DNA from: Clostridia bacterium
GTDB lineage: Bacteria > Bacillota > Clostridia > Oscillospirales > CAG-272
DNA: 62,137 nt
Direction: 5' to 3'
Assembly: GCA_017461365.1 (NCBI GenBank)
Contig: JAFTYG010000002.1
Location: 1-62,137, forward strand
The notes under the pieces are model-generated. The model saw only the letters and a program-made list of their open reading frames with translations, was not told the origin of the DNA and ran no database searches. Below are positions 3,381 through 26,325 of this stretch, piece by piece. Within the stretch, counting starts at the first letter, position 1. Every line of letters begins with the position of its first letter. The position numbers were made by a program, and so were the translations under genes.

Positions 3381-3632
3381 ATGAGAAACACTATTAGAAA
3401 GATTGGAAACACCATCAGAAACAAGGCAACAAAGGCATACATTGCGGGAAAGACCGCACTCTCAGCAAAGAAGGGTGAGGGCTACATCGATACAGCCCTC
3501 AAGATCATCATTTCCGTCGTAATCGGCGGTCTCATCCTCGCTGCACTCTACACACTCTTCAACACTACCGTTATGCCCACGCTGACTGAGAAGATCACAG
3601 GCTTCTTCAGCTATTCGGGCGCGGCGGCGTAA
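3381..3632 (+). CDS. small Tad-type prepilin, DUF6133-like (copy 1)
   Basis: 83 aa. A basic leader (about 1-30) is followed by KKGEGY and one hydrophobic helix (IIISVVIGGLILAALYTLF). This is the layout of Flp/Tad or class III prepilins, cut by a prepilin peptidase next to the Gly-Glu. The C-terminus is short. It is nearly identical from KKGEGY onward to the next gene, so one arose by duplication. As the first two genes of the operon, with AAAGGAG at the start, they are the likely major pilins. The pilin role is inferred from motif and context. Confidence 0.8.
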   Translation: MRNTIRKIGNTIRNKATKAYIAGKTALSAKKGEGYIDTALKIIISVVIGGLILAALYTLFNTTVMPTLTEKITGFFSYSGAAA

Positions 3633-3656
3633 TTTAGAGGAAAGGAGGATAAAAGC

Positions 3657-3890
3657 ATGAGAAAGTTTATCAATAAACTCAGAAGCAAAGCAACGGGAGC
3701 CTACATTTCCGCAAAGACCGCACTTGCGGCGAAAAAGGGCGAGGGCTATATCGATACAGCACTGAAAATCATTATTTCGGTAGTAATCGGCGGTCTTATC
3801 CTTGCAGCGCTCTATACGCTGTTCAATGTAACCGTCATGCCCACTCTTGAGACGAAGATCGGAGAGTTCTTCAACTACTCCGGCACGTAA
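3657..3890 (+). CDS. small Tad-type prepilin, DUF6133-like (copy 2)
   Basis: 77 aa and a close paralogue of the preceding gene: basic leader, KKGEGYIDTALKIIISVVIG, then VMPTL and a short aromatic tail. DNA differences from copy 1 are mostly silent, so the duplication is old but conserved. The ribosome site AAAGGAGG is strong. It is a likely structural pilin processed by the peptidase at 5076-5720. Confidence 0.8.
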   Translation: MRKFINKLRSKATGAYISAKTALAAKKGEGYIDTALKIIISVVIGGLILAALYTLFNVTVMPTLETKIGEFFNYSGT

Positions 3891-3904
3891 GAAAGCGTGA
3901 TATG

Positions 3905-4516
3905 ATGAAGAAATTCATTGCAAACAAACGCGGAGAAGCAAGTGTCAAAACGGCGATCATAATCATAACTTCCGTAGTTGTTGGCGCACTTCTTCTCGGT
4001 GGACTCTATCTCGTATTTGCGAGTGACAACGGTGTTTTAAATACAATGAACAACGAGGTTGCGGGAATGATGGATTATACCCAAGAGCTTCGTTATGAAA
4101 GATATTATGATGAGGCCAGCGGTACATATACAATCAGATATTCCTATGACGGTAGACATTGGAACGAGCCTGAAATGCCAGATTATGGAGATACAGCAAC
4201 AGTTTACGGAGTGATGTCAAATAACTCCGAGAGTGATCCTATCGAGATCGCTCTCATTCAAAAGGGCAGTACGTATTATGTTCTTGCTTCAACCGATGGC
4301 GGTATCACTTGGTCTGAAAAATGTAACTTTACCGCGCAAGGTATTACCCACTTCTATTACGGAACATCAGATCCTCTGCCTTCTGAATCAGGTACCTTCA
4401 GTGGTGAAAGGTTTGTAATTCGCCGTTGGAGTGGCGGCGCTACCTACTTTACAATGACAAGTAGCGGTCTTACATGGTCAACAGGAGGGTGGTCTGATCT
4501 TATTCGTCCAACTTAA
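3905..4516 (+). CDS. pseudopilin with C-terminal Asp-box-like repeats
   Basis: 203 aa from ATG 3905; an adjacent ATG at 3902 is equally possible. It has the same N-terminal prepilin module (NKRGEA, then a hydrophobic helix to about residue 40). A ~150-aa extracellular domain follows with repeated S-x-D-G-x-x-W units: YSYDGRHW, ASTDGGITW and SSGLTW. These resemble the Asp-box (BNR) turns of sialidase-like beta-propellers, though a whole propeller would not fit. It is probably a minor, tip-located pilin with a binding or structural domain. The ribosome site is weak, which fits a minor component. Confidence 0.7.
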   Translation: MKKFIANKRGEASVKTAIIIITSVVVGALLLGGLYLVFASDNGVLNTMNNEVAGMMDYTQELRYERYYDEASGTYTIRYSYDGRHWNEPEMPDYGDTATVYGVMSNNSESDPIEIALIQKGSTYYVLASTDGGITWSEKCNFTAQGITHFYYGTSDPLPSESGTFSGERFVIRRWSGGATYFTMTSSGLTWSTGGWSDLIRPT

Positions 4517-4537: not shown

Positions 4538-5062
4538 ATGAAAAAACTTCTCGCAAACAAACGCGGGGAGGGCTATATCAACACGGCGGTGATTATTATA
4601 ATCGCCGTCGTGATTGGAGGGCTTCTTCTCGGCGGACTATATTTAATTTTTGCCGGAGATAACGGCGTTATGGAGCAAGCGGATAACAAGGTTTACGATA
4701 TGTTCAATACAGGCGGAGAAATTACTCTCAAGCATGAGGGAGAACAGCTCCTATATTCTTATGACGGTGAGACATGGAAAGAATGCACCATAACAGGTAT
4801 GGATGAGACCGGCAGAGTTACGAAATACCTTACAATAGGTGAAGGCGAAAGCCTTGTGCATTTAGTAGCATATAAAACTAATACCAGCGGTCGTATATGT
4901 TACAGCTTAGATGGCAAGGAGTGGATCCCATGTGTTTACGGCAATGCTTCGCTAACTGCAAGCAGTTCAGGAAGAACCGTCTATGCTAATTGCTCCGATG
5001 GAAGATCGTATTATAGCACCAACGGAGTTGATTGGATACTATCCTCAACCGCAAATTACTGA
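4538..5062 (+). CDS. second pseudopilin with Asp-box-like repeats
   Basis: 174 aa. Prepilin start NKRGEGYINTA and a hydrophobic helix, then a ~130-aa domain with YSYDGETW, YSLDGKEW and YSTNGVDW. It is paralogous to the previous gene but diverged in the exposed domain, as expected for adhesive minor pilins. AGAAAGGA precedes ATG 4538. The prepilin peptidase gene starts 13 nt after its stop. Confidence 0.7.
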   Translation: MKKLLANKRGEGYINTAVIIIIAVVIGGLLLGGLYLIFAGDNGVMEQADNKVYDMFNTGGEITLKHEGEQLLYSYDGETWKECTITGMDETGRVTKYLTIGEGESLVHLVAYKTNTSGRICYSLDGKEWIPCVYGNASLTASSSGRTVYANCSDGRSYYSTNGVDWILSSTANY

Positions 5063-5075
5063 TATGGAGGTATAT

Positions 5076-5720
5076 ATGTTCTCAACATACATTCGTCCTA
5101 TCATTCACGCGGGTGAGCGTATTAACCGAACGGTGCTTATGACACTTCTGTGCATGATGCTTTTCGTAGGTGTATCCATGCTCATTGGCGTTGTGCTTAC
5201 CAAGGTGATGAAAGAAAAGGGGTATGTAACAAGTATCCCCATTACCTTAATACTTACAGCTGTGGTGTCACTGTTCCTATATGGCAGATTTGGTCTGTCG
5301 GTAACGGCAATACAAGGCGTGTTTCTTATGTTCGTCCTGCTATATGCGTCGTGTTCGGACTTGACCAATCATATCGTGGACGACTATGTGTGGGTAATCG
5401 TATTCGCACTCGCTTTGCTGAACATTCAGACCGTAGGACTAACATCAATGGTAATGGGAGCTTTCTGTGTCTTTATCCCGCAAATGGCTATGGCACTCTT
5501 GCCACCCCATAAAACTCTCGGTGGAGCGGACATTAAGCTCTCCACAGCCCTTGCGTTCTTACTCGGTTGGCAAAGAGGACTTGCGGCATATATCGTCGGT
5601 CTGCTTCTCGCTATCATCGTTATGTGTATCGTCAATAAGATACGCAAAAATAAGGAAAGCAAAGCCTTTGCTCTTGTACCGTTTTTGTCGGTAGCGGCAA
5701 TGGCTATGTTTATGTTCTAA
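5076..5720 (+). CDS. prepilin peptidase, A24 family (TadV/CpaA type)
   Basis: 214 aa from ATG 5076, chosen for the GGAGG site at 5067-5071; longer starts lie inside the previous gene. It is multi-spanning, with the two A24 aspartates in CSDLTNHIVDDY and GGADIKL. This aspartic protease at the inner face of the membrane removes leader peptides from prepilins. It lacks the N-terminal methylase domain of PilD, as is usual for Tad peptidases. Its substrates are probably the K-[KR]-G-E proteins encoded around it. Confidence 0.88.
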   Translation: MFSTYIRPIIHAGERINRTVLMTLLCMMLFVGVSMLIGVVLTKVMKEKGYVTSIPITLILTAVVSLFLYGRFGLSVTAIQGVFLMFVLLYASCSDLTNHIVDDYVWVIVFALALLNIQTVGLTSMVMGAFCVFIPQMAMALLPPHKTLGGADIKLSTALAFLLGWQRGLAAYIVGLLLAIIVMCIVNKIRKNKESKAFALVPFLSVAAMAMFMF

Positions 5721-5733: not shown

Positions 5734-6516
5734 ATGAAATTCAATTTTAAGAAAAGGGACACTCCCGAAACCAAACCCGCAGTTAAGAAAAGCAAGTCGG
5801 GCAAAAACATATTTGCCTCACGTTCCTTTATAGGAATACTCTGTATTGTCCTTGCCCTTATCGTCTGCTTCGGCGCGGCTCCCATCATCAATAGAGTCTC
5901 CGATGAAAAGACGGAGATCGTAAGGATGAGAAATACCGTTCTCAAAGGCACACAGCTTACCGAGAACGATATCGAGGTCGTTTCTGTCGGGGCATATAAC
6001 CTATACGAAGGTGTTATCACGGACAAATCCCAAGTCATAGGCAAATATACCACGGGAGATATGTATAAGGGAGAATACATCTTCGCGGAGCATATCACCT
6101 CTGACATTAACACAGCTAACGACATTCTCGGCAGTCTCAACGGAGAGAAGAAAGCTATCAGTATCACAATAGGCTCGTTTGCACTCGGTCTTTCAGGAAA
6201 ACTTGAGACGGGAGATATAATCTCGGTCATCGTTTACGATTCCAAGGAAGGCTACGCGCATACTCCCCCTGAGCTTCGATACGTAAGAGTAATCACCTCT
6301 ACCACCTCACAGGGAATAGATAAGGCGGACAGGACGGATAACACCCAGCCTGTGACCATTACTGTGCTTGTCAATCAGAAACAGGCAGAGCTTCTTGCGA
6401 AGTACGAAAAGACATCATCTATGCACTTTACACTCGAATACAGAGGAGATATGGCAACGGCGCAACGCTTCCTTAATATGCAAGAGGAATACTTTGCTGC
6501 GAATACGGAGGGATAG
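5734..6516 (+). CDS. CpaB/RcpC-like Flp pilus assembly protein
   Basis: 260 aa: cytoplasmic N-terminus, one membrane helix (about 29-50), then an SAF-type domain (NTVLKGTQLTENDIEVV, about 70-130) and a periplasm-facing beta-rich region. CpaB in Gram-negative Tad systems works with the secretin. No secretin is seen here, as expected for a monoderm, so it probably links pilus and cell wall. It lies between the prepilin peptidase and CpaE genes. Confidence 0.82.
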   Translation: MKFNFKKRDTPETKPAVKKSKSGKNIFASRSFIGILCIVLALIVCFGAAPIINRVSDEKTEIVRMRNTVLKGTQLTENDIEVVSVGAYNLYEGVITDKSQVIGKYTTGDMYKGEYIFAEHITSDINTANDILGSLNGEKKAISITIGSFALGLSGKLETGDIISVIVYDSKEGYAHTPPELRYVRVITSTTSQGIDKADRTDNTQPVTITVLVNQKQAELLAKYEKTSSMHFTLEYRGDMATAQRFLNMQEEYFAANTEG

Positions 6517-6519: not shown

Positions 6520-7278
6520 ATGTCATACAAAGATAAGATTATAGCCGTATGGGGAAGCCCCCGTTCAGGCAAAACAGCTTTCTCCTTAAAGCTTGGACAA
6601 ACCCTTTATGAAAAGACAAGAGCGGCGGTGATCGTGCTTTTCTGCGATATAACCACTCCTGCCTTGCCTATACTATTTCCCAATCATAAGGCAACTGAGC
6701 TTTATTCCGTTGGTACAGTGCTGTCAAAGACGGATATTTTCGCAAACGACATAGTATCCAACCTCATAACCGTAAAGGAACGTGCAGACCTCGGCTTTCT
6801 CGGATACAAAAACAAGGAGAACAAATACTCCTTTCCCGAATACGATGCCGCAAAGGCAAGCGAACTGTTTACGGCTATATCCGAGATAGCGGATTATATC
6901 GTAGTAGATTGCGAGTCCGTACCCACAAGCAGTGTACTTACCGATTTTGCTTTGAAGAACGCAAGAGCGACCTTCAAGCTGTGTACCCCCGAGCTTTCCT
7001 GTATAGGCTTCTACCAATCCCAAAACAGTATTATGATAGCAGGCGGTTATCTTCCGGAAAAGACAGTAACGGTTATGAATATCCCGTCAATCGACCTCTC
7101 GATGCTCGCATCCGATGCGGGAACTCATATAGGGAAGATAGATATAACGCTACCTTACAGTCAAAGCATAAGAGACCAATACCTTGAAGGACGGCTGTAT
7201 ATGCCCACACATGACCGTAAGTACATGCAGGCGATAGAGAAAGCGGCAGAGGCGGTGAGAAAAGATGGAGCTGTATAA
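6520..7278 (+). CDS. CpaE/TadZ-like ATPase
   Basis: 252 aa with a P-loop at 12-19 (GSPRSGKT) and a Walker B-like YIVVDCES segment near 127-134. The fold suggests a MinD/ParA-type ATPase. TadZ/CpaE proteins place the pilus machine at a cell site. It starts 3 nt after cpaB and overlaps the TadA gene by 14 nt, so translation is probably coupled. A response-regulator domain found in some CpaE proteins is absent. Confidence 0.8.
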   Translation: MSYKDKIIAVWGSPRSGKTAFSLKLGQTLYEKTRAAVIVLFCDITTPALPILFPNHKATELYSVGTVLSKTDIFANDIVSNLITVKERADLGFLGYKNKENKYSFPEYDAAKASELFTAISEIADYIVVDCESVPTSSVLTDFALKNARATFKLCTPELSCIGFYQSQNSIMIAGGYLPEKTVTVMNIPSIDLSMLASDAGTHIGKIDITLPYSQSIRDQYLEGRLYMPTHDRKYMQAIEKAAEAVRKDGAV

Positions 7279-8566
7279 TCTTCTCAAACTCACACAGCGG
7301 TATATCTCCGAGCATTATTCCTCGGCACTCATAGATAACAGTAAAAGTACGGAGCTTAAAGCATACATAGGGAAGTATCTCTATGATACGGGATATACAG
7401 TAGATGGCTATGACAGAAACAGCCTTATAGAGCGTCTTTTCTGTGAAATGGCAGAGTATTCGATACTTACAAAATACCTCACAGATCCCGATATAGAGGA
7501 AATAAACATCAACGGCTGGGACGACGTTGCTCTTACACATCTTGACGGGCATATAGAGAAAGCAGCGGAATATTTCTTCACCCCCGGTCACGCTGTTGAC
7601 GTGGTAAAGAAGCTCTTACAGCATTCGGGGATGATAATCGACAACGCTACACCCATAGCGCAGGGACACCTTCCAAACAACACCCGTGTCACAGCTCTTA
7701 AAGAGCCTATTGTTGACTCGGACAGAGGTATAGCGGTATCGATTCGTATGCTTCACCCCGCGAGAGTGGATAGAGAGAAGCTGCTCCAATCGGAGTCTAT
7801 ATCCGAAGAAATGCTGTCTTTTCTTGAAATGTGTATCCGTTACGGTGTGTCGTTCGTTGTAGCAGGTCGTACCTCATCGGGAAAGACCACGTTACTCAAT
7901 AGCTTACTCGGCTCTATCCCCGACGGCAAACGTATCTACACCATAGAAAGCGGAGCGAGGGAATTATCTCTCATAAAAAGAGATAAGGACGGTAGAGTAA
8001 GAAATAACGTAGTCCATACACTTTCCCGCCCATCGGATAATCCGTCTTATGACATATCCCAAGAGGATCTTGTTATGGCGGCTCTGCGCTTCGACCCCGA
8101 CGTTATCTGCGTGGGAGAGATGCGAGATGCCGAAGCTCATTCGGCAGTCGAGGCAAGCTCCACCGACCATACCGTTGTTACAACCGTTCACGGTGGCGGC
8201 GGTAAGTACGCTCACAGACGTATTGCCTTTCTGTCACAAAGACGCTTTCCCATAGATATGCGTATATCCTTACAGCAGGCGGCATTGGCGTTTCCAATAG
8301 TCGTATTCGCTCATAAGTTAGAGGATAACAGCCGTAAAGTAATGGATATTACGGAATGTATCGTCCACGACGGCGGAGAGCTTGAATACAGAACGCTATA
8401 CAGATATGCTATCCACAGCAACGAATACACAGACGGAGTATTCTCTATCAAGGGAGAGTTTGTCAAGGAAAACGCTCCGTCAGAAATCCTACGACAAAAG
8501 CTTATGAGGGGCGGTGTTCCCGAAGAGCTGATACGAAGATTTGAGGAAGGAGGAGAACAAAAGTGA
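7265..8566 (+). CDS. tadA: TadA/CpaF secretion ATPase (VirB11-related)
   Basis: 433 aa. Walker A GRTSSGKTTLL (about 201-211), Walker B VICVGEMRD (about 279-287) and a His box ending TTVHGG (about 308-313), after an N-terminal domain. This is the hexameric ATPase that powers Tad pilus assembly. In this hybrid operon it could also serve as the VirB11 equivalent of the type IV secretion machine, because no other VirB11 is present. It overlaps the genes on both sides. Confidence 0.93.
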   Translation: MELYNLLKLTQRYISEHYSSALIDNSKSTELKAYIGKYLYDTGYTVDGYDRNSLIERLFCEMAEYSILTKYLTDPDIEEININGWDDVALTHLDGHIEKAAEYFFTPGHAVDVVKKLLQHSGMIIDNATPIAQGHLPNNTRVTALKEPIVDSDRGIAVSIRMLHPARVDREKLLQSESISEEMLSFLEMCIRYGVSFVVAGRTSSGKTTLLNSLLGSIPDGKRIYTIESGARELSLIKRDKDGRVRNNVVHTLSRPSDNPSYDISQEDLVMAALRFDPDVICVGEMRDAEAHSAVEASSTDHTVVTTVHGGGGKYAHRRIAFLSQRRFPIDMRISLQQAALAFPIVVFAHKLEDNSRKVMDITECIVHDGGELEYRTLYRYAIHSNEYTDGVFSIKGEFVKENAPSEILRQKLMRGGVPEELIRRFEEGGEQK

Positions 8567-9489
8567 CCTTTATATATTTTCTATGCTTTGCTCTTGCAAC
8601 TGTAGGAGTAATATTCGCCTTTGGTCTTACACCGGAGGGGCTTACAAACGACCTTGCCCCCTTGTTCAATAAAAGAAAAACTCTGCGAGATAAATCTCTC
8701 ACGGCAAGGGGTAAGAAAAAGACCAAAAGATTTGTCGTGGAGATACAGAGAATAAAGATCGCCCTTGAGGAAACGGGAAAAGCTAAACATTTTTCTGTAG
8801 CTCTTGCTATATCCGTTATCCTTATGATAGTAGGTTGCATGGTAGCTGTAGTTATAGATAACCTTTTCCTCATTCCCGTCCTTGCCGTGACCTTTGCTAT
8901 GATACCATTTGCATATCTCAAAAAGACCATAAGCATCTACGAGAAGCACGTAAAAGAGGACTTGGAAACTGCGCTGTCTATCATTACGACCTCTTACGTC
9001 CGCAACGATAACATCATCAATGCGGTAAAAGAGAACATCCGTTACTTAAAGCCGCCTATAAAGGGCATATTCGAGAGCTTTCTTGCAGAGACCTCAAGCA
9101 TTACACCCGATATTAGAGTGGCAATCTCTCACCTCAAAGAGAAGATAAACGATACCATATTTGAGGAATGGTGTGACGTGCTTATCTCCTGTCAGAATGA
9201 TAGAACCTTAAAGGACACGCTTATGCCGGTGGTATCCAAGCTGACCGATGTGAGACTTGTAAACAACAGTCTTAAAACAATGCTGGATAACGCAAGGCGA
9301 GAGTATTACACAATGGTGGTAATGGTAGTGACTAATATTCCTATTCTTTACCTCATTAACAAGGATTGGTATAACGCTCTTATGAATACCACGCTCGGCA
9401 AGATCGTTCTTGCCATCTGCGCAGTGGTTATCTTTATTACGGCAATGAGACTTAATAAGATAACCAAGCCTGTAGAATACAAGAGATAG
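8563..9489 (+). CDS. TadB-like inner membrane platform protein
   Basis: 308 aa, starting at GTG 8563 after GGAGGAG and overlapping TadA by 4 nt. There are membrane helices near residues 1-20, 80-125 and 250-300, with a cytoplasmic helical stretch typical of the type II secretion F domain (about 120-240). It pairs with the next gene as the TadB/TadC membrane platform driven by TadA. Confidence 0.85.
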   Translation: MTFIYFLCFALATVGVIFAFGLTPEGLTNDLAPLFNKRKTLRDKSLTARGKKKTKRFVVEIQRIKIALEETGKAKHFSVALAISVILMIVGCMVAVVIDNLFLIPVLAVTFAMIPFAYLKKTISIYEKHVKEDLETALSIITTSYVRNDNIINAVKENIRYLKPPIKGIFESFLAETSSITPDIRVAISHLKEKINDTIFEEWCDVLISCQNDRTLKDTLMPVVSKLTDVRLVNNSLKTMLDNARREYYTMVVMVVTNIPILYLINKDWYNALMNTTLGKIVLAICAVVIFITAMRLNKITKPVEYKR

Positions 9490-9500: not shown

Positions 9501-10373
9501 ATGATAATCATTCAAATAATCGTCGGTGCGCTTGTCGCAGTTGGAGTTGGTGCCATATTGATCGACATTCTTCATATCCCCACCCTCAAGGCTCAAAAGG
9601 CGGTAAATAACCTCGGTAAAAAGGGAGATAAGAAGGTAAGCGTAATTGAGATATACCTGAAGGACTTTTCGGTATTTATCTCAAAACACTTAAAGCTCAA
9701 TGAGTATAAGAAAGCTCAGCTTGAAGGAGATCTGCGTACAGCGGGAATGGAGATAACGCCTGAACGCTACGTAGCAGACGCTCTTACAAAAGCTCTCGTT
9801 ATAAGTGTTTTCGCAATACCCGCGTTCTTCGTATTCAAGATAGCCGCTGCCGTTGTTCTTCTTATTGCCGTACTTATCTATTTCAAGGAATACAAGGCGG
9901 TAAGCGGAAAGATAAAGGCAAGACGGCAAAAGATAGAATACGAACTCCCCCGTTTCGTAAGTTCCATTGAGAAAACGATGCAGCACAACAGAGACGTCAT
10001 ATACATACTCGAATCCTATAAGGAAACTGCGGGAGAAGAATTAAAGAGCGAGCTTGAAATAACCATAGCGGATATGCGTTCGGGAAACATTGAGGTGGCT
10101 CTTACAAGACTTGAAACAAGAGTAGGCTCTACTATGATGAGCGACGTCACAAGAGGTTTGGTGGCTCTTAACCGGGGCGACGACAACCGCATCTATTGGG
10201 GACAGCTCGTTATGAAGCTGGCAGACTACCAAAGACAATTACTCCGTCAGCAAGCGGACGCAGTACCGAGGAAGGTCAAGAAGCTGTCTATGGCTCTTAT
10301 GTTCTGCTTTATGCTCATATACGTGGCAGTCATAGGATACGTTCTCGTGACCTCTCTCGGTTCTATACTGTGA
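9501..10373 (+). CDS. TadC-like inner membrane platform protein
   Basis: 290 aa: N-terminal helix, cytoplasmic region, helix pair near 95-125, F-domain helices with conserved polar positions (YELPRFVSSIEKTM, about 148-161), and a C-terminal helix. It is the expected partner of TadB. The order A-B-C is the classic tad order. Confidence 0.85.
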   Translation: MIIIQIIVGALVAVGVGAILIDILHIPTLKAQKAVNNLGKKGDKKVSVIEIYLKDFSVFISKHLKLNEYKKAQLEGDLRTAGMEITPERYVADALTKALVISVFAIPAFFVFKIAAAVVLLIAVLIYFKEYKAVSGKIKARRQKIEYELPRFVSSIEKTMQHNRDVIYILESYKETAGEELKSELEITIADMRSGNIEVALTRLETRVGSTMMSDVTRGLVALNRGDDNRIYWGQLVMKLADYQRQLLRQQADAVPRKVKKLSMALMFCFMLIYVAVIGYVLVTSLGSIL

Positions 10374-10455: not shown

Positions 10456-10863
10456 ATGAAAAGGATATGTAATAAAAAAGGCGAAGGATACGTTGATGTG
10501 GCTGTTGCTGTGCTTGTAATCTCTTTCTTACTTATACTCCTTGTAAGCGTGTTCGGAGTGATACATCAGAAGCAGACACTCAACCAAATGGCGCAGCAGC
10601 TCGCGAAGACGGCGGCAATAAACGGCTGTGTCGGTGACGAGGTACAAGAGCGTTATGAGCAGTTGTGTGAGCAAATGGGTATTACACCCACAATGACCTT
10701 TGAAGCGAACTACTTTGACGAGGATGCGGGAAAGGTACAGATTGGTGACATTATTACATGTACGCTTACAATGGATACTTCTCTCATAGGCTTCGGCGGA
10801 GAGCTGTTTCCCATAGATATGACGGTTACTGCTTCAAGCGTGTCGCAGGTGTATTGGAGGTAA
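10456..10863 (+). CDS. TadE-like pseudopilin (DUF4320 type)
   Basis: 135 aa starting with NKKGEGYVDVAVAVLVI, the same prepilin signature as the first genes of the operon, then one hydrophobic helix and a ~95-aa extracellular domain. DUF4320 proteins are typical of Clostridia conjugative elements. Its place after TadC matches tadE/tadF in tad loci, so it is probably a minor pilin. Confidence 0.78.
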   Translation: MKRICNKKGEGYVDVAVAVLVISFLLILLVSVFGVIHQKQTLNQMAQQLAKTAAINGCVGDEVQERYEQLCEQMGITPTMTFEANYFDEDAGKVQIGDIITCTLTMDTSLIGFGGELFPIDMTVTASSVSQVYWR

Positions 10864-18400: not shown

Positions 18401-19484
18401 GGCTATCGTTTCCGTCACGAAGAACGGAGAGACTATCGAATACAATTCGGGAGATGTCCTTAATGAGAACGGCGCATACACAATTATCTTTGAAAATCAC
18501 GACGGCAACAGGGCTGAATACCGTTTTGTTATCGACAAGATAAAGCCTGAGATCGCAGTCGAGGGAGCAAGGAGCGATATGCCCGTAAATACTCCCGTAA
18601 CGGTCAGCTTCACAGAAAATGGACTTACCGCTATCATTATAAAGGATGGAACGGAAAGCCCGTATATCTCGGGAACGGCAGTGACAGAGCACGGGCAGTA
18701 CACAATAAGGGTAACTGACAGGGCAAACAACGTATCGGAAACAAGCTTTACCATTGATAAAGAAGTGGAGTATACCGTCAATGTTCATAACGAAAGCGTA
18801 TCCACAAGTGTGATACTTACAGTCAATGAGGATGCAGAGGTGTTGGTTTATAAAAACGGAGAGCTTATAGAATACGAAACAGGAGCGGCAATTACCGAGC
18901 CTGCGGATTATCTTATCAAGCTCACAGATGCTTTTGGAAACACTGAGGAAATAGCCTTTACCATCGTACCGTCTGTAGTTCAGAAGCTTGAATACAACTT
19001 TGATAACGTCGAAGGCTTTGAAAAAATCCTTGTTAACGGTGAGGACAAGAGACTTAACTACGGCACTCTTGAACTGCTCACGGACGGCACTTATGAGGTG
19101 AGTGTCATAGCGAGCGGCGTTACACATTCCTTTAGTGTAACAGTCGATGCAACCGCGCCTACGCTTACGCTTGACGGTGTTGATAATGGCGGTACGACCA
19201 AGAAAAGCGTTACTCTTACCGATATGAGCGATGATGCTACGATACAGGTCTTTCTCGATGACTTGCCCATTGATTATGAAATGGGCGACGAGCTTGAGGA
19301 TATAGGCATTTACAAGGTCGTGCTGACTGATGAGGCGGGAAATGTGACCGAATACAGCTTTGAGATCCTTTGGAAGATGCCTGCCGCGGCAATCGTTCTT
19401 ATCGTTGTAGCGGTGCTCGGAGTTGTCGGAGTAGTTGTATGGATGATAATTTCCGGCAAACGTAAAAAGGAATATTACAGCTGA
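15474..19484 (+). CDS. 1336-aa surface protein with Ig-like repeats, C-terminal anchor
   Basis: Starts at TTG 15474 after AAGGAGG. Signal peptide (about 1-33, ending SAA), then many beta-sandwich modules. Four related units begin with [SL]SGSYTN near residues 180, 270, 355 and 440, and DxxxPT-type linkers precede later modules. A transmembrane helix (about 1305-1325) and a short basic tail end the protein, with no LPXTG motif. Repeated bacterial Ig-like domains suggest a long stalk projecting through the wall, suitable for cell contact during mating. It lies inside the T4SS operon between PrgI and VirB4, so a mating-adhesin role is likely but inferred. Confidence 0.78.
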   Translation: MKGKKKFLRRLIVLVMTLLTIIGTMVVMPVSTSAATNRAGVYMLYGTYNIGDGNVSGYLDRFGIQIGTSYFRDDASTTTKYNYATYDWTYFTFYIHAGDIDEHTSFKLTRNGSTYTSKSLSGDGSGYLYQGSLSDGDYVLTYVGEYWSGIFTKKTYTFTYHFTVDTTAPSVSLTAGGSYISSGSYTNKAIKFSASDSYSTCKIYYKSPGSSSYTYTTSSSKSVSALTSNNGWWYFYASDGYQSSSTYSVYLDTVYPVGKISNSSGTTLLSGSYTNKPVKYTATDSGGISYYQVLTPTSSSWSSYSSGTALSSSHGWYYFRAVDKAGNASGTSSVYYDATAPYGTLYGGTSAKSSGSYTNASYIKYQASDSHSGISSCYVLKPGSSSYVSYTNGSQLTAEGTYYFYCVDRSGNQSSVVSITLDRTLPTAQLYVDGDPISSGSYTNGEYISFESNGNCYVKLPNSTSFSEYVSGTEYDKSGKYVFYATDAAGNNTGEYSIVIDRTAKTVTLDNVFDGKTDGDVRVYWKDGDADVYAPITSVTVNGKDISNGDRVYTIATGEYEVSVTDAAGNTWSTSFVSSKKNILNDTLQKEYYEATDINGDVFSFETYDSAFAFAIERENLLVSKGTWSSSVWDTGIPMDAKDSVNAVNGEYYIYKKSGKPDETVAYFTLERLGEVIAEYAADGIKSYYYWQKTPATQGDGENLYRESDGGTLTVNSVILGENIGVLLDGKEFTGSVIETEGKHTVTVYDSFGNSRDYTVTIVRNTPDILYAVGEGTNNSISFDRTYYFKDEVRFLISDTIDTFAMFRILDENGNIVAIRSVGESYTITESGSYTVISINHAGDSQPLKLVISRNAPTVDMNADDGEKRLIITVTPSKDRESHIQSIEILKSADGGSTWQTLTEDDYGTAVTLERTVYEFRTSGLYKVTVTDEFRTGMDAVVKQLDYTQPLPAGTLEGVTNGGYTNSNVTFAWTDEAIVSVTKNGETIEYNSGDVLNENGAYTIIFENHDGNRAEYRFVIDKIKPEIAVEGARSDMPVNTPVTVSFTENGLTAIIIKDGTESPYISGTAVTEHGQYTIRVTDRANNVSETSFTIDKEVEYTVNVHNESVSTSVILTVNEDAEVLVYKNGELIEYETGAAITEPADYLIKLTDAFGNTEEIAFTIVPSVVQKLEYNFDNVEGFEKILVNGEDKRLNYGTLELLTDGTYEVSVIASGVTHSFSVTVDATAPTLTLDGVDNGGTTKKSVTLTDMSDDATIQVFLDDLPIDYEMGDELEDIGIYKVVLTDEAGNVTEYSFEILWKMPAAAIVLIVVAVLGVVGVVVWMIISGKRKKEYYS

Positions 19485-19498: not shown

Positions 19499-22006
19499 AT
19501 GACAAAAACGGATAATAACAAAAGACAGTCGGGCAGAGGCGCGCAGGAGTCGAGATACTTAAACCCTGCCGCAGAATATCTGCCCGTGTATAAGATCGAA
19601 AACGGTATTATCTACACAAAGGATTACCGATACGTAAAAATAGTAGAGGTCAATCCTATAAACTTTATGCTCCGTAGTCCGAGAGAACAGCGGAGCATAA
19701 TCTATTCATTCGTCAGCTTTCTTAAAATAAGTCCCGTAAAAATGCAGTTTAAGGTGATTTCAAAGGGTGCTGACATAAACCGCCATATTGAAATGATACG
19801 GCGTGAAATGGAGACAGAAACGGACGAAAACTGCCGTATGCTTCAAGAAGATTATCTGGAGCTTATCAGGCGGCTTGGTTCTCGTGAGGCGACCACAAGA
19901 CGTTTTTTAATTGCCTTTGAATATGAGGCTGAAGGAGCTCGGCGCGGAAATGAGGAGTCAGAAGCTATCTCTTTCTTACATACCGCCGCACGAACTGCGG
20001 TTAATTTCTTAAAGCAGTGCGGTAATGAGGTGCTGATGCCCGAAGACGAGGATGAATTTTTAGCCGAGGTCCTTTACAGTGTACTGTGCCGACAGACAAG
20101 CAGTACGGTACCGTTTCACAAGCGTATTCCGCAGGTGATAGCCGAATACGTGGCGACGGGGAAGAACATCAATGACATACCTTGCTCGGAGTTCTTTGCC
20201 CCAAAATCCATTGATTTTACCCGTGGGCGTTACGTATGCGTGGACGGTCTTTATCAATCATATCTGCTTATCCCGTCTTTTGGATATAGGTCAGAGGTAA
20301 CGGCAGGATGGTTGAGCCTTCTTATAAATGCGGGTGACGGAATCGACGTGGATCTGTTCCTTACAAAGCAACCGAAGGATAGAATGGTGCAAAAGCTAGG
20401 GCAACAGCTTCGTATCAATCACTCTAAAATAAAGGACACGAGTGACACAAATACCAATTTTGACAGTCTCGATGATGCAATCCAAAGTGGGTATTTTCTC
20501 AAGCACGGTATTGCGGAGAACGAGGATTTTTACTATATGAATACACTCATTACCGTCACGGGAACGAGTCCTGCCGAGCTTGATTACAGAGAAAAAGAAA
20601 TGAGAAAGCTGCTTCTTTCTCACGATATTACAGCGGTCAGTTGCACCTTCCGTGAGGAGCAAGCCTTTCTTTCCGCTCTGCCTCTCGCAACACTTGAAAA
20701 GCACTTGTTTGAGCGTTCTAAAAGGAACGTACTGACACGGGGCGCGGCGAGCTGTTACCCCTTCGTCAGCTTTGAAATGTGCGACGATAACGGCATTCTG
20801 TTGGGCGTCAACCGTTTCAATAACTCTCTTACCATAGTGGATATTTTCAATTCACAGGTATATAAGAACGCTAACATTTCCATTCTCGGAACGTCGGGCG
20901 CGGGTAAGACATTCTTGATGCAACTGATGGCTCTCCGTATGAGACGAAAGGGAATACAGGTGTTTATCGTAGCTCCATTAAAGGGACACGAGTTTTACCG
21001 AGCTTGTCAGAATATCGGCGGTGAGTTCATACAGATTTCTCCAGCATCTCAGAGCTGTATTAACATAATGGAGATACGAAAGGCGGATAAATCCGCTGAC
21101 GAGCTCATTGACGGTATTACCGCAAATAAGTCAGCCCTTGCCTCGAAAATACAAAGACTGCACATTTTCTTTAGTCTGCTCATACCCGATATGACTCACG
21201 AGGAAAGACAGTTGCTTGATGAAGCGCTCATAAAGACCTATGAAGAAAAGGGCATTACCCACGATAACGACTCCCTTGCAGCTCCCGATAATCCCGAGCA
21301 TTACCGTCAAATGCCCGTTCTCGGAGACCTTCACGCCATACTTAAAAAGGACGCACAAACACGGCGTATGGCAAATATTCTGAACCGCCTTGTGAACGGT
21401 TCTGCAAGCACCTTTTCACAGCAAACCAACGTCAATCTGGATAACAAGTACACGGTGCTTGACATATCCGAGCTTGGCGGCGACCTTCTTCCCGTGGGAA
21501 TGTTTGTAGCGCTCGATTATGTATGGGATAAGGCGAAGGAAAACCGTACCGTAGAGAAGACCATTTTCATTGACGAATGTTGGCAGCTTATCGGCGGTAC
21601 GGGTAACAGGCTTGCCGCTGAATTTGTGTTGGAGATCTTTAAAATTATCCGTGGATACGGCGGCTCTGCTGTGTGCGCTACGCAGGACCTTAACGACTTT
21701 TTTGCTCTTGACGACGGCAAATACGGAAAGGGAATTATAAACAACTGCAAGACGAAAATCGTTCTCAATCTTGAGGATGAGGAAGCGCAGAGAGTACAGT
21801 CGATACTGCGATTGTCCGAGGCGGAGCTTATGGAGATAACGCATTTTGAACGCGGAAATGGGCTTATAAGCACCAACAACAATAACATTTCGGTGGAATT
21901 CAAGTGCAGTCAGTTAGAAAAAAATCTTATTACGACAGACCGCCGAGAACTGCAAAATATTATGCAGGAAAGAGCGGCGCAGACAAACAAGGAGGATGAA
22001 AAATGA
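19499..22006 (+). CDS. virB4: VirB4-family conjugation ATPase
   Basis: 835 aa. Walker A GTSGAGKT (about 464-471), Walker B TIFIDECW (about 688-695) and a downstream ATQDLNDFF segment typical of VirB4/TraC proteins, preceded by the usual ~400-aa N-terminal domain. It energises pilus assembly and substrate transfer at the inner membrane. It starts 14 nt after the surface protein gene and overlaps the next gene by 4 nt. Confidence 0.95.
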   Translation: MTKTDNNKRQSGRGAQESRYLNPAAEYLPVYKIENGIIYTKDYRYVKIVEVNPINFMLRSPREQRSIIYSFVSFLKISPVKMQFKVISKGADINRHIEMIRREMETETDENCRMLQEDYLELIRRLGSREATTRRFLIAFEYEAEGARRGNEESEAISFLHTAARTAVNFLKQCGNEVLMPEDEDEFLAEVLYSVLCRQTSSTVPFHKRIPQVIAEYVATGKNINDIPCSEFFAPKSIDFTRGRYVCVDGLYQSYLLIPSFGYRSEVTAGWLSLLINAGDGIDVDLFLTKQPKDRMVQKLGQQLRINHSKIKDTSDTNTNFDSLDDAIQSGYFLKHGIAENEDFYYMNTLITVTGTSPAELDYREKEMRKLLLSHDITAVSCTFREEQAFLSALPLATLEKHLFERSKRNVLTRGAASCYPFVSFEMCDDNGILLGVNRFNNSLTIVDIFNSQVYKNANISILGTSGAGKTFLMQLMALRMRRKGIQVFIVAPLKGHEFYRACQNIGGEFIQISPASQSCINIMEIRKADKSADELIDGITANKSALASKIQRLHIFFSLLIPDMTHEERQLLDEALIKTYEEKGITHDNDSLAAPDNPEHYRQMPVLGDLHAILKKDAQTRRMANILNRLVNGSASTFSQQTNVNLDNKYTVLDISELGGDLLPVGMFVALDYVWDKAKENRTVEKTIFIDECWQLIGGTGNRLAAEFVLEIFKIIRGYGGSAVCATQDLNDFFALDDGKYGKGIINNCKTKIVLNLEDEEAQRVQSILRLSEAELMEITHFERGNGLISTNNNNISVEFKCSQLEKNLITTDRRELQNIMQERAAQTNKEDEK

Positions 22007-22527
22007 TAACAAGAGAACAGTTATACAGCAAGGAAGTTGGTTCTTTGCTCCGTGATATCACCACCTATCACTGTATGAAAGGTGAGCAATTAAAGCGGCT
22101 ATATCATATGCAAGAGGACAAGCTTGAAAGACTTTTGACGTATATCGTAAAGCAAGGACGCATCTATTATGACGCTCAAAAAGGTATATATTACGATTCT
22201 CCCGATATGCAGACTGATTCTGAAATGTTGGCGGCAATCTGGGTACTCACAGACTTTGGAGATAAGACGGAATATCACAGTACAGACTCTTTTCCGACTC
22301 AAATCATCTTCTTTGCTGACGGTGAAACATACGAAATTATCTACGTTCCCCAAGACAAAGAGACACTTATTTTACACGCAATGAATATGCGTCACGATAA
22401 CGACTGCGGCAAGAAAATACTTATTGTGGAGTGCGTTGAGCAGATTGAAAATATCGAGCTTGAGGGAGCTATCTTTTGCACCGTAGATATGAAAAACGGT
22501 GACGTGCAGTATTACAAAAAGGAATAG
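22003..22527 (+). CDS. DUF5697-like protein
   Basis: 174 aa, soluble. The N-terminal ~65 residues look like a winged helix (LLRDITTYHCMKGEQLKRLY then GRIYYD), followed by an alpha/beta domain. Similar small proteins of unknown function accompany VirB4 in conjugative elements of Clostridia. It overlaps virB4 by ATGA-type coupling. Confidence 0.6.
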   Translation: MITREQLYSKEVGSLLRDITTYHCMKGEQLKRLYHMQEDKLERLLTYIVKQGRIYYDAQKGIYYDSPDMQTDSEMLAAIWVLTDFGDKTEYHSTDSFPTQIIFFADGETYEIIYVPQDKETLILHAMNMRHDNDCGKKILIVECVEQIENIELEGAIFCTVDMKNGDVQYYKKE

Positions 22528-22541
22528 GAAAGGAGGTTTTT

Positions 22542-23204
22542 TTGGACAGACAAACCATAAATAAAAGAATTACTGGGATACAGAATGAGGTTGAAAAGCT
22601 CGTTAGAACCCTACGTGCGATGGAGCATACAGACCTTGTGCAATACCCCGAAAACTACGAAATGCTATCCACTGATGCGGCACTTCGAGGTGAGCTTATA
22701 ACCTGCCGTTTGAGGCATCTGATATACAGCACGACAAGCATAAAAAAGTCAGATTATCTCGCTTCGGCAGGTGTGGTCCAGGGCATAGAAATTAAGTGCG
22801 AGGACGGTATTTTGGAGATAACCTTGCCGTGCCTGATGCCGAAACGCAGTCAGCGTAAGAGTACGGAATTTCTTATTGATCCGTTATATTTTACTTTAAG
22901 CGGTTATGTAAATACGCATAAGATCCCGCGCTTTGAGCATTGTGTCGTATGCTTCTCCCACGTATATGATGAAGCTCTGTCAGACAGATGTATCAGAGAT
23001 TACGATAACTTGGAGTTAAAACAAATTCTGGACGTTGTTTCCGCTTTCGTAATGAAAGACGACAGCGGACTTCTGTGCGACGCATATAACACTACTGAGG
23101 TCGGAAAAAGAAGCTGTACACGTATAACGGTAATGGATAAGGAACGGTTTCCAAAGTGGCTGGAGGAGCGTAAAAGCACGCTTAAAGCAATATCGGATTT
23201 TTAG
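22542..23204 (+). CDS. DUF6100-like protein
   Basis: 220 aa starting at TTG 22542 after AAAGGAGG. An N-terminal coiled-coil-like helix (about 8-30) is followed by a mixed alpha/beta domain. There is no signal peptide and no catalytic motif that I recognise. It resembles proteins of unknown function found in the same place in related elements. 143 nt of AT-rich sequence separate it from the next gene. Confidence 0.6.
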   Translation: MDRQTINKRITGIQNEVEKLVRTLRAMEHTDLVQYPENYEMLSTDAALRGELITCRLRHLIYSTTSIKKSDYLASAGVVQGIEIKCEDGILEITLPCLMPKRSQRKSTEFLIDPLYFTLSGYVNTHKIPRFEHCVVCFSHVYDEALSDRCIRDYDNLELKQILDVVSAFVMKDDSGLLCDAYNTTEVGKRSCTRITVMDKERFPKWLEERKSTLKAISDF

Positions 23205-23347
23205 CGAATTTTCGAGAATTTTTTTCTATATGCCGCAAAAACGGGTTTTATATGTTATTTTTGGAGACAGTCATTAGAAAACAGACGAAAAAATACCCTG
23301 ATTTAAAACTTGTGCGGTAAAAAAAGAAAAACAAGGAGGTGGTATCT

Positions 23348-24460
23348 ATACCACGCAAAATTGCCCTCCCCGATAAACAAACGAGGGCTTATGAATTACT
23401 TGAACTTGCCGCCATATTCGGTGAGTTCCCAACAACATCACTGTGGCGGCTGTCCGGTAGTGCAAGCTACAAGGAGACAGTTGTCACGGCTCTCAAAAAG
23501 CAAGGACTTATAAAGACACACTATAAGGACGGACGGCGAGGACTGCGCCCAACGACCACCGCAAAGAAGCTGCTTGTTGCGGACAACCCCGAACGCTTTT
23601 CCGCATATATGTCCGAAAACGCCGATACCAACCACATAAGGAGTGAGCCCCACCGCCGTGAGCGTTTGTATCGAATTGCCGAGGCAACTCTTACAATGAA
23701 AAATGCGGGCGCATCGGTTTACCGTGACGAACACCCTCCGATCTTTTCACTGACTTGGGAAGAAGACGATTATATTCAATCCCCGCTGTTCTATTCTTCA
23801 CGTGAGATAAGAGACACGGGCGTGGAGTTCTTTAAGACAAAGGGGGCGCGTTACGTGGGTATATTACTGACAAGCGAAAATGCCTTTGTTACTTATAACC
23901 TTGGCAACGGTCTTATTAAGTGGGCGTACAAAGCAGAAATGAGGACAAAAGCCGTTTTAGAACGGCTGCTCTGTATTGAACGCCTACCAACACAATACTC
24001 CCCAGAGTCAATTAAAGGTCTTGTTCTCGGTAACTCAATGGAGCTAGCCTTTGAGATACTCAAAAAAAGCAGACAGCATTATCTCATTCTTGACGATAAC
24101 TACGAAAACTTTTATTTTGTTACCAACGACGAGAAGGGGGAAATGCTCGTTCGGCTTTTATGCCGCCCTGACCTCTGTGATGAGCTTGACGAGATATTGA
24201 CCGATGACTTGTATCCCGCACGAAAGGGGGCTCTTATTGACCACGACGCTGTGACCGAGGACGGCAGACCTGTGCTTCTCGCCTATAAATGCGACCTGAA
24301 GCGAATACGCAAATTTGATACCGCCCTTGCCCTACAGGAAAAGACAGGTATCATTATCTGCTTTGACTATCAAGCTGAGGTCCTGCGCCGTTATTGCTGT
24401 GATGCGGTAGAGTTTCAAACCCTTGACTTTGAGAAAACAGAGAGGAGGTTATTTCAGTAG
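23348..24460 (+). CDS. winged-helix protein (replication-relaxation-like), apparent ATA start
   Basis: About 370 aa from ATA 23348 (M-PRKIALPDKQTRAYELL). AAGGAGGTGGT (23333-23343) ends 4 nt upstream. The earlier in-frame GTG (23339) overlaps that ribosome site and cannot use it. GTGGTAT/ATACCAC (23339-23345 and 23348-23354) forms an inverted repeat over the site and start. The N-terminus is a winged helix (about 10-75); the rest is alpha/beta and ends in a segment that may be nuclease-like. It resembles the replication-relaxation family in layout and lies directly before VirD4, where DNA-processing genes often sit. No relaxase tyrosine motif or HUH is visible. Confidence 0.65.
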   Translation: MPRKIALPDKQTRAYELLELAAIFGEFPTTSLWRLSGSASYKETVVTALKKQGLIKTHYKDGRRGLRPTTTAKKLLVADNPERFSAYMSENADTNHIRSEPHRRERLYRIAEATLTMKNAGASVYRDEHPPIFSLTWEEDDYIQSPLFYSSREIRDTGVEFFKTKGARYVGILLTSENAFVTYNLGNGLIKWAYKAEMRTKAVLERLLCIERLPTQYSPESIKGLVLGNSMELAFEILKKSRQHYLILDDNYENFYFVTNDEKGEMLVRLLCRPDLCDELDEILTDDLYPARKGALIDHDAVTEDGRPVLLAYKCDLKRIRKFDTALALQEKTGIIICFDYQAEVLRRYCCDAVEFQTLDFEKTERRLFQ

Positions 24461-26325
24461 ATAAGAAAAAGTTTTTCAAAATAGCTGCTGCCCTTGTTCC
24501 GCTCTTGTTCGCTCTGCTTTACGGCGGCGGTTACGTCGCGCAATTTATCCGTAACTATAACGAGTGGCAAGCCACGGGCGCTACGATGGGGGACGGAAGT
24601 TCCCCTGCCGCCCCGTCCTTTGCTATAGGCGCGTGCTTTGCGGCTATGTTTTCATTCCCCTACGGTATCATCGGTATCGCACTCTGCATAGGTGTCCTTG
24701 CTTTGCTTATCTTTATGGTAATGAAGATGGGCTACGGAGACAAGGGCGAGTATGACAGAACGAGAAATCTCGTTTACTCCGCCAAAGGTACTTACGGTAC
24801 AGCGGGCTTTATGCCTAAGAAAGAGGTGTCCGAGGTTCTGGACTTGGTTGATGATGTGCGTAAGCACAGCGGAACCATTCTCGGTAAGCTCGACGGACGG
24901 GCGGTATGTGTTCCAAAAGAAACGCGGCTTAACGCTAATCTTGCCGTGTACGGTGCGAGCGGTTCTATGAAAACACGAGCGTTTTGTATTAACAGAATAT
25001 TGCAAAGCGCAGCGGATGACCGAAGGGAGTCGCTTATAATTTGCGATCCGAAGTCAGAGCTGTATGAAAAGACGAGTGAGTATCTTCGCTCCAAGGGTTA
25101 TGAGGTCAAGGTGTTCAATCTTGTAACTCCCGAAGCCTCTGACTCTTGGAACTGTCTGTGCGAGATCGGCGGCGACGAGCTGATGGCACAGCTCTTCTGT
25201 GACGTCATTATTAAAAATACAGGCTCGGAGAGAGGAGACCACTTCTGGGACAGCGCGGAAATGAATTTGCTTAAAGCATTAGTCCTTTGTGTAGAGCAGG
25301 GATATCCCGAGGATAGAAAGAACATAGGAGAAGTATATGCGCTTTTGACACCAAGCTACACAGATCCCGAAAAGAAGTTAAACGAGCTATTTGAAAATTT
25401 GCCGACGACGCACCCAGCCAGAGCGCCTTATGCAATATTCAAGCAAGCATCCGAGACGGTACGAAGCGGGGTAATCATTGGACTTGGCTCAAGGTTGCAG
25501 GTGTTCCAAAACAGACAGATACGGAATATCACCTCTTACAGTGAAATAGACTTGGAGCTTCCCGGCAAGAAGCCCTGCGCCTATTACTGCATTACGAGCG
25601 ATCAGGATAGCACCTTTGATTTTCTTTCTTCGCTGTTCCTGTCATTCGTATTTATCAAGCTCGTACGGTATGCGGATAAGAATTGCCCTAACGGAAAGCT
25701 GCCCGTACCCGTCCACGTGCTTGGAGAGGAGCTGACCGCCTGCGGTGTTATTCCCGATCTAAGCCGCAAAATATCTGTTATACGCTCACGAAACATATCT
25801 ATGTCCTGTGTGTTCCAAAACCTCGCGGGACTACAAAACCGCTATCCGTATAACCAATGGCAGGAGATACTCGGCAACTCGGATATCCAACTCTTTCTTG
25901 GGTGTGTTGACGAGCTGACGGCAAAATACATCAGCGACCGTTCGGGTGAGGTATCTATTGCGGTAACAAGCAAAGCAAAGCAGCTCGGTACGTGGCGAGT
26001 CAGCGACTATACACCCGAATACCGAGAGACCAGTGGCGTGGGCAAAAGAAAATTACTCACGATGGATGAGGTACTTCGGCTACCTATAAACAAAGCTCTC
26101 GTAATAATCCGAGGGCGTAAGGTGTTACAGGTGGATAAGTTTGATTACACCTCGCACCCCGAAGCTGACAAGCTCATACCGTGCAAGGCATCCGAGCATA
26201 TCCCTGAATGGAGCAAGCACCTCCGTCCAGAGATAACGGAAAAAAACGAGAAAAAGGCTAAAAAGAAATCGTCTGTAAAGACAGGCGTAGTAAAAACAAA
26301 TAAAGATGCTATAATGTCAAATTAA
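24457..26325 (+). CDS. virD4: VirD4/TraG coupling protein, apparent GTA start
   Basis: 622 aa if begun at GTA 24457 (M-DKKKFFKIAAALVPLLF). Two membrane helices (about 7-28 and 52-88), P-loop GASGSMKT (about 166-173, Met in place of the last Gly), Walker B SLIICDPKSE, and the family's C-terminal motifs. It recruits DNA-protein substrate to the secretion channel. No ATG, GTG or TTG gives the first helix its basic start; TTG 24505 would delete most of that helix. GAGGAGGTTAT (24442-24452) ends 4 nt before GTA. The overlap GTAG joins this start with the upstream TAG stop. Confidence 0.88.
   Translation, partial: VDKKKFFKIAAALVPLLFALLYGGGYVAQFIRNYNEWQATGATMGDGSSPAAPSFAIGACFAAMFSFPYGIIGIALCIGVLALLIFMVMKMGYGDKGEYDRTRNLVYSAKGTYGTAGFMPKKEVSEVLDLVDDVRKHSGTILGKLDGRAVCVPKETRLNANLAVYGASGSMKTRAFCINRILQSAADDRRESLIICDPKSELYEKTSEYLRSKGYEVKVFNLVTPEASDSWNCLCEIGGDELMAQLFCDVIIKNTGSERGDHFWDSAEMNLLKALVLCVEQGYPEDRKNIGEVYALLTPSYTDPEKKLNELFENLPTTHPARAPYAIFKQASETVRSGVIIGLGSRLQVFQNRQIRNITSYSEIDLELPGKKPCAYYCITSDQDSTFDFLSSLFLSFVFIKLVRYADKNCPNGKLPVPVHVLGEELTACGVIPDLSRKISVIRSRNISMSCVFQNLAGLQNRYPYNQWQEILGNSDIQLFLGCVDELTAKYISDRSGEVSIAVTSKAKQLGTWRVSDYTPEYRETSGVGKRKLLTMDEVLRLPINKALVIIRGRKVLQVDKFDYTSHPEADKLIPCKASEHIPEWSKHLRPEITEKNEKKAKKKSSVKTGVVKTNKDAIMSN

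Follow-up and report, generated by a model that had tools for sequence, protein, structure and literature searches.

Pilus-assisted conjugation is already known in Gram-negative bacteria. The IncI elements R64 and TP114 combine a type IV filament machine with a conjugative element, their minor pilin is described as an adhesin, and the type IV pilus of TP114 is reported to matter for mating both in broth and in the gut (PMC9045228). The PAPI-1 island of Pseudomonas aeruginosa is described as an integrated element whose own type IV pilus assists its transfer and recognises the recipient (PMC5297154). Here we describe a probable variant of that kind in a Clostridia bacterium (Oscillospirales; CAG-272), probably a gut bacterium, in which a Tad pilus gene set lies inside the operon of a clostridial-type type IV secretion system (T4SS). 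The stretch analysed, hereafter the window, is the whole of contig JAFTYG010000002.1 (C52; 62,137 bases) of the 2.38-Mb assembly GCA_017461365.1, which consists of 92 contigs. As in R64 and PAPI-1, a pilus machine and a T4SS occur on one element, as indicated by the operon layout and by the linkage test given below. R64 and TP114 are Gram-negative systems with a type IVb pilus and a PilV shufflon, whereas the Tad genes of the window lie inside a clostridial-type T4SS operon; PAPI-1, also Gram-negative, has another type of pilus and a T4SS that differs in type from that of the window.

Among Gram-positive bacteria, the tad plasmids of Cutibacterium acnes (p15.1.R1 group) likewise carry a tad locus together with VirB4/TcpC-like genes, and a functional link between the two was left open by the authors (PMC5696575). 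These plasmids are actinobacterial, their transfer genes are described as a locus upstream of tad, and no exchange with adhesins is described in the part of that study available to us. Surface contact devices tied to Gram-positive T4SSs are represented by PrgB of pCF10 and other LPXTG mating adhesins (PMC12857230), instead of which the contact device of the window would be a Tad pilus. A 2025 T4SS review states that Gram-positive systems encode no conjugative pili (PMC12857230), and the word Tad is absent from its main text. A large survey describes Tad systems as the type IV filaments most often transferred and found on plasmids (PMC6668835). No description of Tad modules in clostridial T4SS operons was found in the titles or abstract starts of the open-access literature, which is no proof of their absence from print. 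With regard to the T4SS itself, the window resembles the integrative and conjugative elements (ICEs) of the CTn (CD1105-CD1115) family, since its VirD4 scores over the CD1115 cut-off and VirB4 and CD1108-like genes are present; it differs from them in that VirB4 and CD1108 remain under their cut-offs, a Tad block lies in the operon, and no relaxase was found. We take this family, whose CD11xx labels come from profile matches, to be the Tn1549 family.

Results

Gene content and operon organization

Positions 3381-26325 of the window hold 25 plus-strand genes, all of them intact open frames, in which a Tad pilus set is followed by a clostridial-type T4SS. The first part consists of four DUF6133 prepilins, an A24 peptidase, CpaB, a CpaE-like protein, TadA, TadB, TadC, the TadE-like DUF4320 protein, and a TadF-like protein; orf72, orf239b, a VirB2-like protein, two VirB6-like proteins, a CD1108-like protein, PrgI, a surface protein of 1336 amino acids (aa), and VirB4 come next, and DUF5697, DUF6100, orf373, and VirD4 complete the run. 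Eight of the 24 junctions overlap, and the widest gap is 134 nucleotides (nt). The Pfam matches, the common strand, and these short gaps confirm the gene set, gene order, and single-operon layout proposed in the first-pass annotation, including its full Tad set linked to a T4SS (a linkage that recurs in other genomes, see below) and its view that the layout is unlike textbook Gram-positive T4SSs. Two small genes, orf72 and orf239b, separate the Tad genes from virB2.

The components expected of a Tad pilus, namely a TadA/CpaF ATPase, a TadB and TadC platform, an A24 peptidase, CpaB, and a TadZ-like protein, are all found, with a TadA score of 116 bits against model TIGR03819 that is under its cut-off of 373. 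Both VirB4 and VirD4, which mark a Gram-positive T4SS, are present as well, the former under and the latter over the NCBIfam cut-offs. The names CpaE, TadB, TadC, VirB2, and VirB6 are based on synteny and homology and not on curated models. A second contig of the same assembly (C19) copies window positions 2235-20122, the two stretches differing by a single mismatch over 17,888 bases; because this copy spans both borders of the Tad block, both borders have been assembled twice. It represents either a second copy of the element or a strain variant.

Insertion of the Tad block behind the T4SS leader

Comparison of the window VirB4 with genome contigs gave 119 relatives, of which 80 loci with 60-80% identity were kept (hereafter, L-numbers denote fetched loci or stretches and G-numbers compared genomes). 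The VirB4-relatives share, in whole or in part, the backbone rep365-orf239-virB2-virB6a-virB6b-CD1108-prgI-virB4-DUF5697-DUF6100-orf373-virD4-S1; a Blautia-type subset (such as L091-L103, L118, and L121) has a different gene order, and the sister element L144 (Vescimonas fastidiosa pMM35_02) has a fused PrgI-VirB4 gene. Both orf239 and virB2 were detected in 44 of the 80 relatives. At most 2.8 kb separates them in 43 of these, and the 6.0 kb seen in L057 is measured from a fragmentary orf239 match at the locus edge. None of the 44 relatives has a Tad match between the two genes (E 1e-4), whereas in the window they are 9.2 kb apart with the Tad block inside. The 1336-aa protein likewise has no match in the 80 relatives at E 1e-4, and the PrgI detected there starts less than 1 kb before VirB4. 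Among viral contigs, the VirB4 query matched a single locus (L142, 59% identical) that shows only orf239-, PrgI-, and VirB4-like stretches, and the TadA alignment used as query matched none.

The T4SS operon of these relatives begins with a conserved leader. Among the 67 VirB4-relatives with at least 450 nt of upstream sequence, 41 have a promoter-like stretch ending in ATGCTYAAA at 88-214 nt 5′ of virB2, compared with 23 of 1420 random stretches from the same loci. In all 41, a terminator-like hairpin follows whose T run starts within 60 nt past the motif (random 110-nt stretches with a hairpin anywhere, 132 of 670). The same motif and hairpin are present in the window, yet the next gene is the first prepilin and not virB2. 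That the conserved leader now directly precedes the first prepilin suggests that Tad and T4SS genes share one attenuated promoter and would be co-transcribed. By eye, an 8-codon reading frame with a ribosome-binding-like stretch is seen 3′ of the attenuator (3226-3252), and a second hairpin with a T run at approximately 3262-3305, before the pilin genes, looks like a second attenuation step.

The Tad block and the T4SS have different relatives. The window TadA is 62-77% identical to the TadA of other elements (G054, G009, G003, and two in G033), and the nearby VirB4, found in four of these five, is only 22-26% identical to that of the window; in 12 sisters, TadA is 39-42% but VirB4 68-74% identical. 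In trees of 19 matched pairs, which were chosen by us and include long branches, the window TadA groups with one G033 copy (G033a), G009, G003, and G054 (100/99), and its VirB4 with sister ICEs (99/99). Forced opposite placements were rejected in the approximately unbiased (AU) test (p-AU 4.6e-81 and 2.9e-77), and plain identities give the same conflict. This conflict excludes the inheritance of Tad and T4SS as one block and indicates that the Tad block came from another element type and is foreign to this T4SS operon. In L025, L033, and L136-L139, the gene directly 5′ of the Tad block is parB, and the window ParB therefore probably arrived with the Tad module.

Recurrence of the linkage in other genomes and plasmids

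Across 291 genomes of the same class as the window, TadA scores split into an element type (>250 bits) and an ordinary type (<190 bits). VirD4 or VirB4 lies within 35 kb of element-type TadA at 22 of 36 loci (32 genomes) and of none of the 21 ordinary TadA among the matches listed for the same genomes, a count that leaves out one intermediate (207-bit) match and one fragmented copy (Fisher p 1.8e-6, for loci that are not phylogenetically independent and contigs of unequal size). TadA and the T4SS gene were on the same strand in all 35 comparisons. Together with the conserved leader, these counts exclude chance adjacency of Tad and T4SS.

Of the six best plasmid matches to TadA, five were examined in full context, and all carry a Tad block near T4SS genes; in the four compared, VirB4 is unlike that of the window (no match, or 22-23%). 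The sixth, OY725878, encodes a VirB4 of the window type (67%), which by coordinates shares the strand of TadA and is about 14 kb away from it. In the Clostridioides plasmids L143 (pCd5_2), L039, and L041, a related Tad block lies 5′ or 3′ of transfer genes that belong to another type, and cell-wall-binding repeat proteins are encoded near it. An independent case of Tad genes inside the T4SS operon, at a different junction, was found in the same-family genome G436. Its operon reads rep365-orf239-leader-virB2 (85%)-virB6a (79%)-virB6b (72%)-CD1108 (51%)-three prepilins-A24 and then reaches the contig end. This case is incomplete because neither TadA nor VirB4 was found in the G436 assembly at E 1e-20.

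Surface modules downstream of the T4SS

A second site in the sister elements also receives surface modules. Between S1 and orf122/DUF3268, a diverged Tad block is present in 13 fetched sister stretches (L122, L123, L125-L134, and L141), and, by coordinates, there are 21 S1-TadA pairs that share contig and strand and are no more than 25 kb apart. Cultured gut commensals with a sister element that has the resident Tad module include Fournierella massiliensis DSM 100451 and Diplocloster modestus ASD4241. The slot is empty in the window, with the end of S1 at 28904 and the start of orf122 at 29025. The same slot of Vescimonas fastidiosa holds an SpaA/SpaH LPXTG pilus with two class C sortases. When this slot and 20 stretches 3′ of S1 were considered together as TadA-less slots (n=21), LPXTG proteins of 443-2557 aa were identified in 12, and a sortase motif only in two (L149 and L160, which both stop at a contig end); no far border gene was seen in L150, L151, L159, and L164. 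SpaA-fold domains were found in three large slot proteins scanned, two of which have thioester domains, and all three slot sortase candidates scanned matched the Sortase model. No LPXTG protein or sortase motif was found in the 13 Tad slots, even with a wider motif. Two kinds of surface module thus occupy one T4SS-linked slot. In L159 and L160 (Anaerotignum and Tyzzerella elements), CpaB- and CpaE-like genes stand beside a sortase with no tadA in the stretch, and L159 also has an LPXTG protein; these genes are possibly remnants of a Tad module under replacement.

In a quick VirB4 tree of 30 rows, with Shimodaira-Hasegawa-like approximate likelihood-ratio test (SH-aLRT) values only and with L105 labelled from its sortase alone, the slot state changes at least two times, and the window groups with L043, L045, and L046, all LPXTG carriers (SH-aLRT 96). 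The contig of L042 (VirB4 80% identical) is cut before the slot. The simplest history is that an LPXTG protein was lost and a Tad block gained at the head of the T4SS operon.

Features of the window and its edges

Assignments of the individual features are collected in Table 1.

Table 1. Positions of the annotated features in the window and the basis of each assignment
Feature	Position	Strand	Basis
ParB	412..1293	+	PF02195 9.7e-18
T4SS promoter/attenuator leader	3008..3153	+	TATAAT -10-like box; ATGCTTAAA at 3079-3087; intrinsic terminator 3113-3153 (terminator scan)
Short DUF6133 prepilin 1	3381..3632	+	PF19629 2e-23
Short DUF6133 prepilin 2	3657..3890	+	PF19629 5.2e-24
Long prepilin 3, C-terminal domain	3902..4516	+	PF19629 7.1e-10; weak BNR 0.04; alignment
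Long prepilin 4, C-terminal domain	4538..5062	+	PF19629 3.3e-15; alignment
A24 prepilin peptidase (real start probably later)	4983..5720	+	PF01478 8.7e-10; GGADIK motif
CpaB/RcpC	5734..6516	+	PF16976 1.5e-10
CpaE/TadZ-like ATPase	6520..7278	+	32% to ParA-family gene between CpaB and TadA of pESS17301a; no meaningful Pfam match
TadA/CpaF motor ATPase	7265..8566	+	PF00437 (T2SSE) 3.1e-26; Walker A GRTSSGKT; best solved match CpaF 8rkd
TadB	8563..9489	+	40% to pTPHSE1 gene after TadA; no meaningful Pfam match
TadC	9501..10373	+	38% to pTPHSE1 "secretion protein F"; no meaningful Pfam match
TadE-like pseudopilin (DUF4320)	10456..10863	+	PF14208 3e-32; TadE model only 0.14
TadF-like pseudopilin	10867..11310	+	No Pfam match; 31-34% to gene after DUF4320 in L027, L029, L031, L033
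orf72 and orf239b, Tad-module-associated	11313..12222	+	Homologues within ~6 kb of Tad modules in L033, L025, L136
VirB2-like	12235..12618	+	75% to Vescimonas gene annotated "fimbrial protein"; T4SS_pilin only 0.1
VirB6-like pair	12695..14297	+	Synteny in VirB4-relatives; 73% and 49% to Vescimonas genes; no meaningful Pfam match
CD1108-like, no hydrolase domains	14297..15124	+	NF045974 0.0012, under cut-off
PrgI (VirB3-like)	15137..15484	+	PF12666 weak, 0.038; 51% to PrgI part of PrgI-VirB4 fusion (Vescimonas element)
1336-aa surface protein	15474..19484	+	N-terminal signal, repeats, C-terminal membrane anchor, no LPXTG (by eye)
VirB4 ATPase	19499..22006	+	PF19044 (P-loop_TraG) 8.8e-20; CD1110 255 bits, under 325 cut-off
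DUF5697, DUF6100, orf373	22003..24460	+	T4SS-linked, conserved; found together with virB4-virD4 in many sister elements
VirD4 coupling protein, CD1115 family	24505..26325	+	NF045973 402 bits, cut-off 250; Pfam T4SS-DNA_transf 2.5e-47
Empty surface-module slot between S1 and orf122	28905..29024	+	Tad or LPXTG/sortase genes occupy this place in sister elements

At the left edge, positions 10-89 and 152-231 form an 80-nt near-perfect direct repeat containing the 5′ part of tRNA-Asn, the first copy being a truncated tRNA; this is possibly a trace of integration at the contig edge. The tRNA-Asn 3′ end was matched only once, with no second copy that would complete an att pair, and the left end of the element may be cut off by the contig. 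A minus-strand AAA_14/DUF4143 ATPase gene (26361-27569) lies between virD4 and S1, two genes that stand close together in many sister elements. Farther downstream (47602-50275), two genes of the endonuclease/exonuclease/phosphatase family are arranged in tandem; parts of them are about 80% alike, and both contain a short tandem repeat, with units of 15 and 12 nt. The protein encoded by orf373 has a possible winged-helix N-terminus.

Discussion

The position of the Tad genes and their recurrence beside different T4SSs make it probable that the window holds an integrated clostridial-type conjugative element with a Tad pilus that is exchangeable, serves mating contact, and is co-transcribed with the T4SS. 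A foreign Tad module would have been taken into the T4SS operon between the operon's own promoter/attenuator and virB2, so that the pilus and the transfer channel would be made together once the promoter is active and transcription has passed the attenuator. The A24 peptidase would trim the DUF6133 prepilins, and TadA, TadB, and TadC would extend, and perhaps retract, a thin pilus that makes first contact, with the long minor pilins and the 1336-aa surface protein as candidates for touching or binding recipients; VirB4 and VirD4 would then move DNA via a VirB6-based channel. The Tad pilus would act not as the T4SS motor but as an attachment device, in place of the surface proteins that sortases anchor in the closest relatives whose slot is visible. 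CpaF motors are reported to power both extension and retraction in Caulobacter (PMC11300603), and retraction could therefore draw cells together. We propose tentatively that clostridial conjugative elements may make a retractile Tad conjugative pilus, an exchangeable module interchangeable with sortase-anchored adhesins, which catches and pulls in recipients under the T4SS promoter/attenuator.

Several observations weigh against a mating pilus of this kind. The leader motif is missing from 26 of the 67 relatives. The canonical Flp cleavage site G/xxxxEY is absent from the aligned window prepilins, which have a DUF6133 variant instead (KKG-EGYID, KRG-EASVK, and KRG-EGYIN; A or G precedes E in relatives). 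No VirD4 or VirB4 lies within 35 kb at 14 of the 36 element-type TadA loci (contigs of <25 kb in five cases and of 43-224 kb in the other nine), and no T4SS homologue was found at these 14 in the stretches fetched. The linkage is thus common and not universal, giving a mixed answer to the first-pass annotation, which had regarded Tad genes standing alone elsewhere as evidence against a joint system. Neither an LPXTG protein nor a sortase was found in seven of the 21 TadA-less slots; the slots of L154, L155, and L162 hold other genes, and L156-L158 and L163 have another order; the genomes of L154 and L155 do have a TadA, which is 24 and 51 kb away from S1, respectively. As the 20 stretches were picked largely for their lack of a known TadA, the exclusivity of the slot arises partly by selection. 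The nesting of the window among LPXTG carriers comes from the quick tree described above, and a close relative, L044 (VirB4 75%), has no S1, no slot, and no TadA in its genome.

The mobility genes weigh in the same direction. Among the 60 window open reading frames (ORFs) scanned, there was no relaxase match, no intact integrase (only a 146-aa resolvase N-terminal, serine-recombinase, fragment), and no VirB1-like peptidoglycan hydrolase domain, and the lysozyme-like and C39 domains of the L156 CD1108 homologue are absent from the window protein, as in many relatives. Profile searches gave no relaxase match for orf373, which was rejected as a candidate. The sole PF03432 match in the genome lies on another contig. 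Of eight sister genomes, PF03432 was found in none of G061, G062, and G098 and not on the element's contig in G080, G087, and G060; the match nearest to VirB4 is 43 kb away in G085 and 12 kb away on the other strand in G064, which indicates that a relaxase gene may lie nearby in some sisters. With no relaxase and only a serine-recombinase fragment, the element may be incomplete or immobile.

The Tad pilus could instead be hitch-hiking cargo for host or biofilm colonisation, for which a place in the T4SS operon is convenient and not functional. Tad pili are adhesive in many bacteria, a Tad locus is reported to be needed for efficient gut colonisation by Bifidobacterium breve (PMC5696575), and both the Tad and the LPXTG proteins could serve gut colonisation; the unlinked TadA loci would also fit. 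However, the insertion directly behind the T4SS leader, the repeated same-strand linkage to different T4SSs, and the occurrence of LPXTG proteins in the T4SS-linked slot when other sisters are considered argue otherwise, although cargo could also yield some of this, and we regard this explanation as unlikely.

A decaying mosaic, in which recombination brought Tad and T4SS together and both are now out of use, would account for the missing relaxase and integrase, the CD1108 homologue without hydrolase domains, and the empty S1 slot. It is improbable given that all 25 operon genes are intact, the leader and hairpin are kept, two near-identical copies have been assembled, and a similar arrangement occurs in a related genome (G436); moreover, the relaxase may belong to an unrecognised type or lie left of the contig edge.

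The first-pass annotation had also noted that no separate VirB11 is present and suggested that TadA may power both machines, which would make TadA a VirB11-like T4SS motor and the pseudopilins part of the transfer channel. TadA and VirB11 belong to one superfamily, and the top NCBIfam match for the window TadA is VirB11 (122.9 bits, over 116.2 for the TadA model, both under cut-offs). Its best solved match is nevertheless CpaF (116 bits), above VirB11 (70 bits), and a full Tad platform with its own TadB and TadC is present in the window. Gram-positive T4SSs are described as generally lacking VirB11 (PMC12857230), so that its absence needs no substitute. In a survey of 43 genomes with this T4SS, many of them incomplete drafts, that covered 44 of the 80 VirB4 loci, no TadA was detected in 15 (E<=1e-20), and in several others the ordinary kind is the only one present. 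TadA is therefore not an obligate motor of this T4SS, and we reject the VirB11 role as highly improbable.

The proposed mating function of the Tad pilus can be tested, since one T4SS backbone is common to sister elements that carry Tad, LPXTG proteins, or neither. If true, a Tad pilus joined to a clostridial T4SS, in an element with LPXTG proteins in its closest slot-bearing relatives, would fill a gap for anaerobic gut bacteria, in which little is known about how donors find recipients.

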